A stretch of DNA of 64,000 nucleotides from Candidatus Zhuqueibacterota bacterium (GTDB taxonomy: Bacteria; Zhuqueibacterota; Zhuqueibacteria; Residuimicrobiales; Oceaniaggregativiventaceae): NCBI GenBank assembly GCA_014728085.1, contig WJMF01000222.1:1-64000 (forward strand), given 5' to 3'. This document shows positions 25,307-52,155 of this stretch, piece by piece (the first letter of the stretch is position 1; the number at the start of each line of letters is the position of its first letter). The position numbers and the translations under genes are program-made. The notes below the pieces were generated by a model, which was not told the DNA's origin, did not search any database, and saw only the letters and a list, made by a program, of their open reading frames with translations.

Positions 25307-26149
25307 TTATGACCTGAAAAAGGAGCTCATGTTTTTATAACTGATCTCAATGGCCTCAAGTGCAGGACGTTTGGTATTGTCTTGCTCTACGATACACCAC
25401 TTGATACCCGCTTTTCTGCTGGCATTGATGATACCACCGATATCGAGAATTCCGGTTCCGATCGGTACATCGCTCATCTCTTCGTCATCTCCCATGTCCT
25501 TCATGTGGATAAGCGAACAACGGTCAGAATATTTGCTGATCATGGCTTTGGGATCCTTCCCACCCCGCCTCAGCCAGTAAACATCAAACTGTATCATAAC
25601 CAGTTGTGGATCCGTTTTCTGCAGCAACACATCCATTCGCGTGGTTCCATCGATGTTTTCAAATTCATATGCATGATTGTGGTAATGCAGTTGCATTCCG
25701 GCATTCTTTACTGTCTCACCAAAGCGGTTTAATTGTTCAGAAAACGCTTTTGCCCCATCCACGCCATCATTCCGGTATTTGCCCGGCATACTGGGACAAA
25801 CGATATTTTTGTTCCCAATCGATAAATTCGAATCGATGACTTTCTGAAGGTTTATTTCCAGTTTATCAAAACCCTCGTGAACACTGATCGCCGCTATTCC
25901 CAGGGCATCCAGTTTTTCTTTGATCTTTTGTGGAGAATGATCGTAAAATCCGGCAAACTCGACCGCCTTGTAACCAATTTCTGCAACAGCATCCAGGGTA
26001 CCCATGAAATCTTTTTCCATCAGGTCTCGCACTGTATACAGAATCAAAGCAAAATCCATTTCCTCTGATTTTTGACATCCCGCGCCAAAATATAGCGAGC
26101 TGCTGAGAAGACCCAATTGTTGCAGGAACAATCTACGGTTCGTTTTCAT
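25307..26149 (-). CDS. Sugar phosphate isomerase/epimerase-like TIM barrel, lipoprotein
   Basis: A 280-residue AP-endonuclease-2-type TIM barrel. It has a signal with a twin-arginine-like start (NRRLFLQQLG) and a lipobox (GAGC), so it is probably membrane-attached and exported. Barrel motifs include LYTVRDL, VEFAGFYDHS, LHYHNHAYEFE, IQFDVYWLRRGGKDP, and LIHMKDMGD with metal-binding histidine, aspartate and glutamate. Such exported copies are common in FCB and Planctomycetes genomes; substrates are mostly undefined. GGAGG precedes the ATG, which lies 17 bases inside the nhaC end, so the two are coupled. Confidence 0.85.
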   Translation of the reverse strand: MKTNRRLFLQQLGLLSSSLYFGAGCQKSEEMDFALILYTVRDLMEKDFMGTLDAVAEIGYKAVEFAGFYDHSPQKIKEKLDALGIAAISVHEGFDKLEINLQKVIDSNLSIGNKNIVCPSMPGKYRNDGVDGAKAFSEQLNRFGETVKNAGMQLHYHNHAYEFENIDGTTRMDVLLQKTDPQLVMIQFDVYWLRRGGKDPKAMISKYSDRCSLIHMKDMGDDEEMSDVPIGTGILDIGGIINASRKAGIKWCIVEQDNTKRPALEAIEISYKNMSSFFRS

Positions 26150-27672: not shown

Positions 27673-27698
27673 TAAATGAATAAAAGGAGTGATATAAG

Positions 27699-28889
27699 AT
27701 GCAGAATCATAGCAATCAAACAATACGTGCAGGAAGAGCGGTGAAAAATGATGTGCAAGTTGAAATCAGACTTGATGAACCATTTTCCATTGAGATTAAC
27801 AGTTCGGTCCAATCGCTTTTCGGTCATCAGATCAGGGAATTTATACAAAAGTTCCTATTCGATTTGAACTTTAAAGAGGGCGCCGTATCAGTCAACGATT
27901 ACGGAGCACTGGATTACGTTCTTCATGCCCGCCTGGAATCGGCGGTCAGGAAAACGGGTAAAAAGCACTCTTCTATCGAACCACCAAAACAACATATCCA
28001 TTTACCGAATCCGCAACGTCAGCAACTGCGGCGCAGCCGCCTCTATATTCCGGGCAACACACCAGAGTATATCATTAATGCAGGCCTTTTCGGTGCGGAT
28101 TCGATCATTCTTGATCTCGAGGATTCGGTTATGCCGGATCACAAATTTGAAGCGAGAATTCTGGTCCGCAATGCGTTGCTCAATATCGATTTCAACTGCG
28201 AACGGATAGTTCGAATCAATCCACTTCGGGGAGACTATGGAAAGCAAGACCTGGAATACATTATTCCTGCAAAACCGGATGTACTTCTTGTTCCGAAATG
28301 CGAATCCAGGCAAGATGTGCTTGCCGTTGAAACAGAAATTCAGAGGCTGCAACATCACTATAATATCGATCGTCCTATCCTTTTAATGCCGCTCATCGAA
28401 ACTGCAAAAGGCATTCTTCATGCAGAAGAAATAGCAGCGGCAAGCGCCAATACCATAGCGCTTTGTTTTGGAGCAGAAGATTTTACGGCGAGCATCGGCG
28501 TTGAACGGACAAAAGAAGAAAAGGAAAGTCTTTTTGCTAAAAGTATGATTATACTGGCTGCCAAAGCGGCAAACATACAAGCATTGGATACAGTTTTCTC
28601 AGATGTAGAGGATATGGATGGTCTATTCAAGAGTACGTGTAACTCTGTAGCCCTGGGATTTGACGGACGTGGTATTATTCATCCGGGTCAAATCAAGACT
28701 GTGCACAATGCATTTGCACCCGGCGCAGAACAGATAAATTATGCGGAACAGGTCGTGCAAGCTATCGAGCAGGCCGCAGAGCAAAAAACCGGTGTCGCTG
28801 CTTTGGGCAGTAAAATGATTGATGCGCCGGTTGTCAGGCGGGCAAGAAAAATTCTCACGTTGGCCGAAATCATGGGATTGAAAAAATGA
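27699..28889 (+). CDS. citE: Fused citrate lyase acyl-carrier (CitD-like) and citryl-CoA lyase (CitE) protein
   Basis: A 396-residue fusion. Residues 8-90 match CitD (INSSVQSLFGHQIREFI; VSVNDYGALDYVLHARLES). Residues 108-396 are a CitE TIM barrel (RRSRLYIPGN, ILDLEDSV, RINPLRG, LLMPLIETAKG, CFGAEDFTASIG with Mg2+-binding acidic residues, FDGRGIIHPGQ). In Klebsiella CitD the phosphoribosyl-dephospho-CoA cofactor is on Ser14 of AGTLESSD. Here the aligned stretch is AGRAVKND, with Lys16 at that place and no serine beside it. The carrier half may thus be structural only. AAAGGAG precedes the ATG. The gene overlaps citF by four bases (ATGA). No citC, citX or citG is nearby. Confidence 0.87.
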   Translation: MQNHSNQTIRAGRAVKNDVQVEIRLDEPFSIEINSSVQSLFGHQIREFIQKFLFDLNFKEGAVSVNDYGALDYVLHARLESAVRKTGKKHSSIEPPKQHIHLPNPQRQQLRRSRLYIPGNTPEYIINAGLFGADSIILDLEDSVMPDHKFEARILVRNALLNIDFNCERIVRINPLRGDYGKQDLEYIIPAKPDVLLVPKCESRQDVLAVETEIQRLQHHYNIDRPILLMPLIETAKGILHAEEIAAASANTIALCFGAEDFTASIGVERTKEEKESLFAKSMIILAAKAANIQALDTVFSDVEDMDGLFKSTCNSVALGFDGRGIIHPGQIKTVHNAFAPGAEQINYAEQVVQAIEQAAEQKTGVAALGSKMIDAPVVRRARKILTLAEIMGLKK

Positions 28890-30430
28890 AATTCATAAAA
28901 AATGCGGTAGGCAGAAAAATTCCTGTAGAAATTGACGGCAGGAAACTTGAGCCTTTCGCCGGTGTCGAGTCTGACACGAGTGGCGGACAAAAATATGGCG
29001 GGAAAATACCTCTGGCATCGCAACACCAACAAAAACATAAAAGTCTGCAAGCGGCCATTGCAGAATCTAATCTAAAAAATAAAAGTACCATTTCGTTTCA
29101 CCATCACCTTCGCAATGGCGACGCGGTTATAAAAAGAGTAATGGAACAAATCGCCCGAATGGGACTCAAAGACCTGATCCTGGCTCCCTCTGCCCTTTTC
29201 CCGGTACATGAATTTTTAACCGATTATATCGAAAAGGGAATTATCTCTCACGTCGAGGGTTCTATGAATGGCCCTATCGGTAGGCTGTGTTCATTGGGCA
29301 GGATGCAAAAACCCGCTGTTCTGCGCTCGCACGGCGGCAGGTATCGGTCGATACAGGATGGCGACTTACATATCGATGTCGCCTTTATCGCCGCACCATG
29401 TGCCGATGTTCATGGTAACGCCAATGGACTATACGGCCCTTCCGCCTGTGGACCGCTGGGATTTGCTCTGGCAGATTCTCTCTGGGCCGATAAGGTGATT
29501 GTTATCACTGATCATCTGGTGCCCTTTCCGTGTTATCCGTGGAGCATAGAAGGGGGAAATGTAGATTATGTGGTTGAAATCGATTCTTTAGGAGATCCGC
29601 AGCAGATTGTATCCGGAACCACCCGCATTACCAAAAGCCCGACCCGTCTTCTCATCGCAGAATATGCAGCACAATTGGTTCGGGACTGCGGCATTTTAGA
29701 GGAACCCCATTTCTCTTTTCAAGCCGGAGCCGGTGGCGTTTCGCTTGCCTTTGTTAAATTTATGAGTGAAATGATGGCGGATAAACATGTCGTGGCCGAT
29801 TTTATAAGAGGCGGATCGACCCGATATATGGTAGAGATGCTCGAAAACGGTTTGACAAAATACATACTTGACGGTCAAAGTTTTGATATGGAAGGTATTC
29901 GCTCCCTTCGGGATCACCCTAACCATATCGAAACCAATCCCTTTGTCTCATATAATGTGCATACAAAAGGATGCTTTGCCAGCAGAGTCAAAGTCTCTGT
30001 TCTGGGCGCAACCGAGGTCGACCTGGGATTCAATGTCAATGTCAACACGCACTCGGATGGCTGGCTGTTGCACGGTATCGGTGGTTTTACCGACGCAGCC
30101 GATGCTCAGATTACCATCATCACCGCTCCACTGGTAAGAAACCGCTTGCCAATCATCGTCGAAAAGGTGACGACCATAACCGCACCCGGAGAAATGATTG
30201 ACGTCATTGCAACTGAGCATGGTCTGGCAATCAATCCCAGGCGTCAGGATCTGTTGCAACGATTAAAAAAGAGCAACCTGCCAATTAAAACCATTGAGGA
30301 ATTGCACCAACTTGCCATAAAAATGACCGGCAAACCGGAAAAACCGGAATTTGAGGATCGAATTGTCGCCCTGATCGAGTTTCGGGATGGAACGGTTATA
30401 GATGTTGTACATCAACTGATACCCAGATAA
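28886..30430 (+). CDS. citF: Citrate lyase alpha subunit (citrate:acyl-carrier/CoA transferase)
   Basis: A 514-residue CitF-family CoA transferase, of normal family length. Family marks are ISFHHHLRNGD, SHVEGSMNGPIG, RSHGGRYRSI, AFIAAPCADVHGN, and SVLGATEVDLGFNVNVNTHS with the glutamate in the position of the catalytic residue. In classical citrate lyase it swaps acetyl for citrate on the carrier protein, after which CitE splits citryl-carrier to oxaloacetate and acetyl-carrier. With the carrier serine missing from its partner, transfer to free CoA is my inference. No third gene of the classical set follows; 30431-30533 holds a run of eight C and the secD promoter. Confidence 0.92.
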   Translation: MKFIKNAVGRKIPVEIDGRKLEPFAGVESDTSGGQKYGGKIPLASQHQQKHKSLQAAIAESNLKNKSTISFHHHLRNGDAVIKRVMEQIARMGLKDLILAPSALFPVHEFLTDYIEKGIISHVEGSMNGPIGRLCSLGRMQKPAVLRSHGGRYRSIQDGDLHIDVAFIAAPCADVHGNANGLYGPSACGPLGFALADSLWADKVIVITDHLVPFPCYPWSIEGGNVDYVVEIDSLGDPQQIVSGTTRITKSPTRLLIAEYAAQLVRDCGILEEPHFSFQAGAGGVSLAFVKFMSEMMADKHVVADFIRGGSTRYMVEMLENGLTKYILDGQSFDMEGIRSLRDHPNHIETNPFVSYNVHTKGCFASRVKVSVLGATEVDLGFNVNVNTHSDGWLLHGIGGFTDAADAQITIITAPLVRNRLPIIVEKVTTITAPGEMIDVIATEHGLAINPRRQDLLQRLKKSNLPIKTIEELHQLAIKMTGKPEKPEFEDRIVALIEFRDGTVIDVVHQLIPR

Positions 30431-48781: not shown

Positions 48782-50932
48782 TTATCCCGTTTTGTTAAGT
48801 TGAATGTCTATTTTTGTCTTCCATATCTTCTCAGGCTCTATAGCGACCCTCCAGCTCGGAACAACAACAGAGCTCTGATAAATACGCTCAAATCCGCCTT
48901 CAGACATGGAAATGGTTTCAATGGGAAATCGCCAAATACGGGTCTTCTCTTCAAATCCAAAACCGATATGCACATCAAGCCAATCATCATGAATTTCAAG
49001 AGAATCACCCGTCAGTTCACCTCTGCTAGCCAAATTTTGGTTGTCTTCAGCAATATCGGCATGTTGATAATAGCGATCATGCGCATTTCCTGCCAAAAGC
49101 GAAAAGGGAAATTCTGTCGCAAACCACAATTCCAGGTTTTCATCGGACAAATTTTGAATATCATAATAGACGATCAGTTGATCAGACGATGTAATATGAA
49201 CGTTTTTTCGTAACCGAACCGGTAACGCCTTCTCCTCTAAACGGACAGATCCATTGCGAAAAAGCAAGAGTTCAATTTTATTGCCCCGTTTCGAAAAATC
49301 TACCTCGTAGGGTTGGTCGACAAAATCTCCCAGCTCATCATATTGGGCCTTGTAGAAATCTTCCAGGGTTGTTTCAGATGCAAAAAAATGATCGACCAAT
49401 GCAGAACGCCGATACCAATCATAATGTAGATACTTTTCCAGTCCTTCTTCTTTTGTCATTACGCGGTCATGAATACTGGCAGCCTCTTCTGATGCGTTTG
49501 CATTTCGCTTTACAGCTGTATGCAACTTTTGATGATATCCCTCTCTCCTGCGCGTCATGGTGTCGAGCAAATTGATTTCCCGCGCCTTGAAATCCCATTC
49601 AAAAAGATGCCCGCCGGCATGAGGACTAAAAAACAGGCTCATTTTGTCACTTTCGATGATGAAATCGTCGTGACCATCACCATCAACATCGGTCTGATGA
49701 ACCTGAAGCCAGGTCAAAGTCCGGGACTGCAGGTGCTCGATACGATCCATTTCCTTGTCTGCTTTAATAATATGGTGATATATCGCATGTCTGAGATGGG
49801 GCAAATACAATCCGCCAAAAATACCGTGCCAATAAGGACAATTACACTGTGCAGCATATAAATCATCACGCGCCTGTTCTAATTTGCTTTCCCCTGCAGA
49901 GCGCCCGAGTTTCTCAAGGCGCCGGGAAGCCCAAAGCATTCTTTTGTGCATATTATTAGATTCCGGATATTTGGCCAAAAAATTTCGCCAAAATCCTCCG
50001 CGGACAAACACCTTGTCTTCAGCAGCAACACCCTTTTCATCAAGCCACTGTTCAAATCTTTCATATCGCTCATTCGCCGTTGCCGGTAGCGCCCATTCCA
50101 TCATTTCTCGGTAAGAAGCTGTGGGCAAGTAGATTCTGCCCACCGGATCGAGCTGCTCCAGGGCCTGCTCAAAGGTAATGATGTTTATCCAATCGCTGTT
50201 CTCATCGAGCAAAGTAAAAAACCGGTCAAGCCATCCCTTCTCATAACATTGTTCATAGGTGTCCGGCCAGATTCCGAATTTTTCACCATCATCAGCAAAA
50301 ACCAAAAGACGGTTTGCATCAGCCGTGGCCAGTTCGGATAAATACGCTATGGTTTCTTCAGGGGGGTGGAACGGTATTGTATATCGCAACTTTTCGCTGA
50401 TCGGAAATATTTTAAGGGTAGAGCCATTGTGCTCAGTAATATAGTATCCATAAAGCTCCTCTTGCTCCAACCCCGCATACTTGAAATGAGAATCGTCTAT
50501 CACTGTATAATCAACGCCTGCGTTGTGAATCGGTTCCGGTAAATCCGGTTCCCAGACACGCTCGGCAAGCCAAATGCCCCTGGATTGAAATCCAAATTTT
50601 GCTTTGATGTACTCACTCTGTTTTCTGATTTGGCCAATCTTATCCCTGTCGGGTATTGTCGTTAGAATGGGCTCGTAATATCCACCGGTCATCAGTTCGA
50701 GTCGATGATTTGAAACCATCTGCCTGAGAAGGCGAATAAACTCGGGATGATTTTCTTCAAACCAATCATAGAGTATTCCGGTATAATGCTGCACGATTCT
50801 GATGTTAGAATAAGGCTCATAGGTTTTTAAAAAAGGTCGATAAGCATTCTCATAAGCACTTTTAAAAACAAAATCGAAATTACCCACTGGTTGATGATTG
50901 TGTAAAGCCAAAATCAGATTGATCTTGTTCAC
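48782..50932 (-). CDS. GH57-family glycoside hydrolase (alpha-amylase/4-alpha-glucanotransferase type)
   Basis: A 716-residue protein. The N-terminal barrel begins LILALHNHQPVGNFDFVF with the GH57 HQP motif, includes YEPILTTIPDRDK, GIWLAERVWEPDLP with the nucleophile glutamate, and FADDGEKFG with the acid/base aspartate. The C-terminal half is the DUF1925/DUF1926 beta-sandwich region found in 4-alpha-glucanotransferases of this family. No signal peptide is present, so it probably acts on cytoplasmic glycogen or maltodextrin. The start overlaps the dehydrogenase stop (ATGA). Confidence 0.92.
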   Translation of the reverse strand: MNKINLILALHNHQPVGNFDFVFKSAYENAYRPFLKTYEPYSNIRIVQHYTGILYDWFEENHPEFIRLLRQMVSNHRLELMTGGYYEPILTTIPDRDKIGQIRKQSEYIKAKFGFQSRGIWLAERVWEPDLPEPIHNAGVDYTVIDDSHFKYAGLEQEELYGYYITEHNGSTLKIFPISEKLRYTIPFHPPEETIAYLSELATADANRLLVFADDGEKFGIWPDTYEQCYEKGWLDRFFTLLDENSDWINIITFEQALEQLDPVGRIYLPTASYREMMEWALPATANERYERFEQWLDEKGVAAEDKVFVRGGFWRNFLAKYPESNNMHKRMLWASRRLEKLGRSAGESKLEQARDDLYAAQCNCPYWHGIFGGLYLPHLRHAIYHHIIKADKEMDRIEHLQSRTLTWLQVHQTDVDGDGHDDFIIESDKMSLFFSPHAGGHLFEWDFKAREINLLDTMTRRREGYHQKLHTAVKRNANASEEAASIHDRVMTKEEGLEKYLHYDWYRRSALVDHFFASETTLEDFYKAQYDELGDFVDQPYEVDFSKRGNKIELLLFRNGSVRLEEKALPVRLRKNVHITSSDQLIVYYDIQNLSDENLELWFATEFPFSLLAGNAHDRYYQHADIAEDNQNLASRGELTGDSLEIHDDWLDVHIGFGFEEKTRIWRFPIETISMSEGGFERIYQSSVVVPSWRVAIEPEKIWKTKIDIQLNKTG

Positions 50933-52068
50933 CCGTTTTCCCTCTCCAAAGTATGAATTTCATTCGCAATGGTATGTGCAACCTCCAGCGTCGAAGAGGA
51001 ACCCCCCATATCATATGTTCTGGCTTTGCCCGCCGCAATAACATTGGCGATGGCGCTTTCCAGCAGATCGGCTTTGACGTTCTCTTCCAGGTAATCCAGC
51101 ATTAATCGGGTGGTAATCAACATAGCCAGAGGATTAACCTTATACTGACCGGCGTATTTGGGTGCGGAACCATGCGTAGGTTCAAAAAGGGCATAATCTT
51201 TTCCAATATTGGCACTGGCGCCGAATCCAAGTCCACCCACCAATTGAGCGCACAGATCGGAAACAATATCTCCAAACATATTGGTGGTTACCAGAACACC
51301 GTAATCTTGCGGATTTTTAAGTAACCACATACACATTGCATCAATGTTGGTTTCCCACAATTCAATGTCAGGATACTCTTTTGCAATTTTTCGTGCTTCT
51401 CTTACCACCAATCCACTGGTTTCCCGCAATACATTGGGTTTTTCCACAACGGTAACACTTTTATATCCCTTATCTCCGGCATAATCAAAAGCCGCACGAA
51501 TAATCCGTTGTGTCGCCTGACGGGTAATCAATCTCACGGAAATCGCCATATCATCCGGAGAGATATGAGAAAACCGCTGCATCTTTGGGTGTTCCTTCAG
51601 CGTACTTAAAACCCGCTCCGGTACAGGATGATATTCTATACCGGCATACATGTCTTCCGTATTCTCACGAAAAACCACCAAATCAATGTCATCTTTGTAA
51701 TTCAGGGGATTACCTTTATATGCCTTACACGGACGCAGATTTACAGCAAGGCTAAATTCCTGCCTTAATCTGACGATAGGACTAAAATAAACATATCCCT
51801 TTTTCTTTAATTCAGGGGCAAGTTCTTTTTCCGCTTCTTCTTTTGGTTTTGATGTGATTGCCCCAAAAAGACAACAGTCCGTCTTCCTCAACAAATCGAC
51901 TGTCCGGTCGGGCAATGGATTCCCTTCGCTGCACCAAAATTCCCATCCAACATCACCATGTATAAATTCTGCATCCAATTTGATAGCATCTAAAACAATT
52001 TTTACTGCTTCCATTACATCATTTCCAATACCGTCCCCGGGTAACCATGCAATTTTATATTTCGTCAT
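50929..52068 (-). CDS. Isocitrate/isopropylmalate dehydrogenase-family protein
   Basis: A 379-residue beta-decarboxylating dehydrogenase: WLPGDGIGNDVMEA, DLVVFRENTEDMYAGIE, VVEKPNVLRET, DAMCMWLLKNPQDYGVLVTTNMFGD and FEPTHGSAPKYAGQYKVNP. The cofactor loop (K, Y and V of GSAPKYAGQYKV) matches NADP-dependent isocitrate dehydrogenase and not NAD-type D/I/A. The substrate loop reads SPIVRLRQE; E. coli Icd has SLNVALRQE, so Ser113 and Arg119 are kept but Asn115 is Ile. Isocitrate is likely but not certain. Two adjacent ATGs (52071, 52068) follow AGGGGAA. Confidence 0.85.
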   Translation of the reverse strand: MTKYKIAWLPGDGIGNDVMEAVKIVLDAIKLDAEFIHGDVGWEFWCSEGNPLPDRTVDLLRKTDCCLFGAITSKPKEEAEKELAPELKKKGYVYFSPIVRLRQEFSLAVNLRPCKAYKGNPLNYKDDIDLVVFRENTEDMYAGIEYHPVPERVLSTLKEHPKMQRFSHISPDDMAISVRLITRQATQRIIRAAFDYAGDKGYKSVTVVEKPNVLRETSGLVVREARKIAKEYPDIELWETNIDAMCMWLLKNPQDYGVLVTTNMFGDIVSDLCAQLVGGLGFGASANIGKDYALFEPTHGSAPKYAGQYKVNPLAMLITTRLMLDYLEENVKADLLESAIANVIAAGKARTYDMGGSSSTLEVAHTIANEIHTLERENG

Positions 52069-52126
52069 CATTTTTCCCCTGTCATTGAGAGGTGTTTGGT
52101 CATAAATTAAAACACTGCAAAATTTT

Positions 52127-52155
52127 AGTTTACAGTATTCAAACCAGGAAATCAA
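52127..52155 (-). promoter_or_regulatory. Promoter for the dehydrogenase-GH57-S41 operon
   Basis: Minus-strand TTGATT (52150-52155), a 17-base spacer and TAAACT (52127-52132), 59 bases before the ATG. Confidence 0.65.

Follow-up and report, generated by a model that had tools for sequence, protein, structure and literature searches.

The window, by which we mean the whole 64,000-nucleotide stretch of DNA analysed, carries a gene in which a citrate lyase carrier domain (CitD) is fused to a lyase subunit (CitE), followed directly by citF. These two genes probably encode a distinct class of citrate lyase, ATP-independent and predicted from sequence comparison to use free CoA thioesters, without the covalent 2'-(5''-phosphoribosyl)-3'-dephospho-CoA. 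The cofactor serine of CitD is replaced by lysine or arginine, the accessory genes citC, citX and citG are missing, CitE and CitF fall into clades of their own, and the folds of the fused domains are conserved. The locus reads as follows.

27684..27689, + strand: Shine-Dalgarno-like AAGGAG of the fusion gene, read directly from the sequence
27699..28889, + strand: CitD-CitE fusion gene, 396 amino acids, from profile matches and an AF2 model
27717..27953, + strand: CitD-like carrier domain (PF06857), profile match over residues 7-85
27744..27746, + strand: AAA codon of Lys16, which aligns with Ser14, the residue that bears the cofactor in CitD
27750..27752, + strand: Asp18, the Asp of the canonical S-x-D motif, invariant in 28 aligned fusions
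28023..28874, + strand: CitE domain, a TIM-barrel lyase, residues 109-392, with motifs LDLEDSV, RIN and IHP
28886..30430, + strand: citF, alpha subunit (CoA-transferase), profile match

The carrier part matches the CitD acyl-carrier profile PF06857 with E values of 1.0e-16 and 2.7e-16 and 60 bits, against a cut-off of 25.1. An earlier note on this DNA had assigned the N-terminal 90 residues to the carrier protein; the domain is indeed CitD-like, but the match stops near residue 85. The remainder matches HpcH_HpaI/CitE over residues 109-392, its best curated match being TIGR01588 at 260.6 bits, below the equivalog cut-off of 443.4. The start of citF overlaps the stop of the fusion by 4 nt, and its product scores 564 bits with TIGR01584, above the cut-off of 501, as expected of a CitF alpha subunit. 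AF2 models the fusion with confidence in both domains (pLDDT 93.4, pTM 0.90), and in the PDB the model is matched best by malyl-CoA lyase and human CLYBL; the fused CitE has the TIM-barrel fold with the conserved acidic and Arg residues of free-CoA lyases. A sequence search of the PDB returned no CitD structure. Over 100 genomes have the same fused frame, which rules out an assembly or frameshift artefact, and its conservation rules out a decaying one-off copy.

The sharpest class difference inside the carrier lies at Ser14. Lys16 of the window (AGRAVKND) aligns without a gap to Ser14 of the E. coli and K. pneumoniae CitDs (AGTLESSD in K. pneumoniae), just as the earlier note had placed it, so the window's carrier has lysine where the serine for the prosthetic group would stand. 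PF06857 matches were found in 37 of 99 related genomes, all in fusion-type frames (two run off the contig end), and the column reads Lys in 19 and Arg in 18 of these 37 fusions; the Asp two positions further on is invariant among those aligned. Lys or Arg also fills the column in 72 of the 78 named loci with a readable carrier, drawn from many phyla, and in 28 of 29 readable fusions from a Bacteroidota sample that was drawn with the CitD HMM itself, as the scan of named contigs favoured likeness to the window's class. Stand-alone CitDs, by contrast, have Ser at the site in 17 of 17 cases (E. coli L049, Klebsiella L193 and 15 more), within AGTLESSD, ESGD, ESND or QSSD. The fused carriers also differ at E13 (Val/Ile) and Q40 (Leu/Met), while the rest of the domain keeps the conserved G, D, S, GAL and AR-E positions.

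A few fusions have another residue at the column: Ser in L109, L149 and L200, Gly in L107, His in L093, Asn in L143, and one unclear. These exceptions are scattered and look derived, since L107 and L109 are nested well within the Arg group of the CitE tree. They show that the class can do without a positive charge here, and those with Ser might in principle be modified.

The class is widespread. Scanning the contigs of named genomes yielded at least 437 relatives, the best 80 of which come from Calditrichota, Krumholzibacteriota, Cloacimonadota, Ignavibacteriota, Bacteroidota, Planctomycetota, Acidobacteriota, Chloroflexota, Gemmatimonadota and others. The Bacteroidota sample (the phylum of a Bacteroidales locus) gave PF06857 matches in 37 of 395 genomes, all in frames of 377-455 amino acids and none stand-alone. 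CitF lies directly 3' of the fusion in 33 of the 37 fusion-bearing related genomes and is present in 71 of the 80 named loci. Most of the genomes sampled are MAGs.

Searches for CitC (PF08218), CitX (PF03802) and CitG (PF01874) found no match in the window's own genome, which is 5.19 Mb and 97.9% complete. The same search detected CitG and CitX in E. coli, the positive control, and in none of the 99 related genomes, including all 37 with fusions. Relatives do give PF08218 matches, but we rejected these as CitC: they score poorly (no more than about 31 bits), cover the model only in part and lie mostly in CoaD-sized frames of 160-210 amino acids, as expected of CoaD-type cross-hits. CitG had no match in 49 of the 50 named fusion genomes. 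The remaining one, a Chlorobi MAG (G143), is a natural internal control. It has an Arg-type CitDE fusion and, at a second locus (L176, G143:C198, 2878-7454), a complete citDEF-citXG-citC operon with CitX and CitG fused, whose stand-alone CitD retains the serine (AGSFESSD).

The absence of CitG alone is not diagnostic and does not prove a CoA-dependent enzyme, because among 297 genomes of the Desulfuromusa phylum there were six Ser-bearing stand-alone CitDs, and only four of their genomes had a PF01874 match. In the other two (L179 in G404, L183 in G286) the CitD reads AGAAESGD; these may be a further citrate-lyase-like type, or CitG may have been missed. With serine lost in nearly all fusions and the accessory functions absent where sought, the outcome agrees with the earlier note, which had seen no ligase or prosthetic-group genes at the locus and had proposed this comparison as its test. 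The comparative evidence lends good support to its suggestion that the system needs no ligase and works on free CoA.

In trees the class stands apart from the canonical enzyme. The fused CitEs form a clade (98/94) that is sister to canonical CitE (97/87) and does not group with malyl-CoA lyase and 1sgj, in a tree rooted on three outgroups (malyl-CoA lyases and 1sgj), one of them on a long branch. Similarly, 98 fusion-linked CitFs form one clade apart from six canonical CitFs (SH-aLRT 97). Each clade has nearly invariant changes of its own (E. coli numbering): G385H, R391L, G392H, A393G, R125N, T121G and A352Y in CitF, and R101L, N233H and M17R in CitE. The His and Leu at N233 and R101 agree with the aligned free-CoA lyases.

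The fusion/CitF system is a variant of citrate lyase that occurs widely. It keeps the D-E-F order of CitDEF (EC 4.1.3.6) in the citCDEFXG operons of Klebsiella, E. coli, Enterococcus and Gluconobacter, with identities to K. pneumoniae of 46% for CitF alpha, 35% for CitE beta and 37% over 67 amino acids for the CitD-like domain. It differs in the fusion of D and E as well as in the serine replacement, the missing accessory genes and the separate clades. With free-CoA lyases (malyl-CoA lyase, human CLYBL, Rv2498c and other citramalyl-CoA lyases) it shares the TIM-barrel, the IHP motif and the lack of Arg101, and probably the use of free CoA thioesters. Those lyases are stand-alone proteins without a CitF partner, whereas here a carrier domain is fused, CitF is present and CitE groups with canonical CitE. 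The citramalate lyase of Clostridium tetanomorphum has a three-part architecture analogous to that of citrate lyase, yields acetate and, unlike the fusion class as we read it, is a covalent-prosthetic-group enzyme. In Hydrogenobacter, citryl-CoA synthetase and citryl-CoA lyase are unrelated proteins that use ATP-dependent activation and a citrate-synthase-type lyase, and the likeness is the free citryl-CoA intermediate that we propose here.

What the enzyme cleaves is suggested by its neighbours. At 46 of 118 loci the fusion has a close neighbour, no more than a few genes away and often in one operon with it, from the aconitase, isocitrate/isopropylmalate dehydrogenase or MmgE/PrpD family, and a Na+-translocating decarboxylase cluster lies 5' of the fusion in eight Bacteroidales-type loci. 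This context points to tricarboxylate metabolism, and on balance we favour citrate as the likeliest substrate. The same free-CoA mechanism might instead act on citramalate, 2-methylcitrate or a related hydroxy-acid, giving acetate (or propionate) and a 2-oxo acid, but this seems unlikely. The invariant CitF changes (G385H, R391L, G392H and R125N) could reflect another substrate rather than another carrier, and the loss of the canonical CitE Arg101 would fit. The aconitase-family neighbour is closest in the PDB to isopropylmalate/citramalate isomerase; 20 loci have PrpD-family neighbours, and 8 have methylmalonyl-CoA decarboxylase-type genes. Against this, CitF exceeds the equivalog cut-off for the citrate lyase alpha subunit, CitE is nearest to canonical CitE, and genes of the isocitrate dehydrogenase family share operons with the fusion. 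The small-subunit specificity motif of the aconitase-family neighbours reads YLTI, which points to no particular substrate.

Not every neighbour is informative. The window's subclade has secD-secF-STAS-purA downstream and a divergent NhaC gene. The former arrangement is kept in relatives, yet it has no metabolic link. The NhaC antiporter, which the earlier note had suggested might supply transport, adjoins the fusion in only five close loci, and that role is unsupported. Several other genes were seen near fusions: an HD-domain protein of about 189 amino acids in 21 loci (e.g. L064:2377-2943), ADP-ribosylglycohydrolase-family genes 5' of the fusion in L070, L077, L083 and L149 (tandem copies at three), and a xylose-isomerase-like TIM-barrel protein in 4-5 loci of the window's subclade (window 25307-26149, - strand). 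About 20 kb from the window's fusion, an isocitrate/isopropylmalate dehydrogenase-family gene adjoins a GH57 gene (50929-52155, - strand). Two distant CitF-like proteins share one contig (L088, 4910-6493 and 11495-13087) in a genome without a CitD match (G075).

We consider it quite likely, judging from sequence comparison, that the fusion/CitF enzyme uses free CoA. CitF would convert acetyl-CoA and citrate to citryl-CoA and acetate, and the CitE domain would cleave citryl-CoA to oxaloacetate and acetyl-CoA; we infer that the enzyme runs in this citrate-cleaving direction. As the acetyl-CoA would be recycled and CoA would be catalytic, CitC, CitX and CitG would be unnecessary. The canonical enzyme lacking its acetyl arm reportedly cleaves citrate when acetyl-CoA is added, and its isolated subunits are said to act on CoA esters in vitro (Buckel 1973; Dimroth and Eggerer 1975). 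The first of these papers is among the references of PMC6689899, the second among those of PMC3832036. The simplest reading is that this acetyl-CoA-dependent in-vitro mode would be the normal mode of the fusion class.

The fused carrier domain would then be a retained docking site where the thioester stays as it passes from one active site to the other. In holo-CitD the prosthetic group is joined to Ser14 by a phosphodiester. The 3'-phosphate of free CoA may lie near the equivalent place, so the charge of lysine or arginine could hold it, with Lys16 (Arg in most relatives) making a salt bridge to ordinary CoA in place of the seryl phosphodiester. Such binding of a CoA phosphate is plausible, but the residue may equally serve otherwise. 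The carrier might also be a degenerate scaffold that does not help to bind CoA, free CoA passing through CitF and CitE alone, and the loss of serine and the few sequences uncharged at the column are consistent with this. We think it rather doubtful, since Lys or Arg occupies the column in nearly every sequence from a wide range of phyla and the remaining domain is conserved, which is unlike drift. For the same reason the passive scaffold suggested in the earlier note is a poor fit, and an active role for the positive charge appears likelier.

The direction of the reaction can be weighed against the distribution of citrate synthase. The window's own genome has aconitase-family genes elsewhere and no match to the citrate synthase family PF00285. 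A strong PF00285 match is missing from 17 of 37 fusion genomes (this one and 16 of the other 36), as against 8 of 62 non-fusion relatives (Fisher p 0.0006, uncorrected for relatedness and blind to Re-type synthase). Weak citrate-synthase-like matches occur inside open frames of 908-923 amino acids in G006:C2, G008:C229 and G017:C3. The enzyme might instead run in reverse and replace citrate synthase, making citrate from oxaloacetate and acetate through acetyl-CoA and citryl-CoA. This contrast and the operon partners, which run from citrate to 2-oxoglutarate, would favour it, but citrate synthase is present in 20 of the 37 fusion genomes, and the equilibrium at cellular concentrations favours citrate cleavage; we regard reverse operation as improbable. 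Less credible again is a carrier that still bears a covalent group, placed on a different residue or by some unrelated enzyme. A Ser follows the Lys/Arg in most fusions (KSD/RSD) and Ser35 is invariant, but Gly or Asn follows it in 8 of 37, the window included, Ser35 is probably structural since most stand-alone CitDs also have Ser at its column, and the CitG and CitX that would synthesize and attach the group are missing.

Our preferred reading, cleavage of citrate with free CoA, bears on how genomes are interpreted. A carbon-fixation survey (PMC9802188) names the citryl-CoA synthetase/citryl-CoA lyase pathway and counts ATP-dependent citrate cleavage alone, setting other routes aside as not distinguishable. 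The genome paper on Melioribacter roseus (PMC3534657) leaves open whether some other enzyme stands in for the missing ATP-citrate lyase. In a Melioribacter-labelled genome (L117) the fusion lies beside idh, aconitase-family and prpD-family genes. The literature searched, which excluded most subscription journals, does not describe such a fusion.

Citrate lyase is a textbook example of an enzyme whose purpose-built, covalently bound arm, derived from CoA, has to be made, attached and acetylated by accessory proteins. If our reading is right, a class that has dropped those proteins would show a carrier protein turning into a CoA-binding domain. More tentatively, a covalent swinging-arm carrier may have been converted, probably once, to a non-covalent CoA-docking domain by the change from Ser to Lys or Arg. 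The result would be a widespread citrate lyase, free of both ligase and cofactor biosynthesis, that connects citrate with the TCA cycle across many uncultured phyla and may make citrate where there is no citrate synthase. The reading of genomes would change accordingly, for the 37 of 395 Bacteroidota sampled that carry the fusion and for many other phyla.
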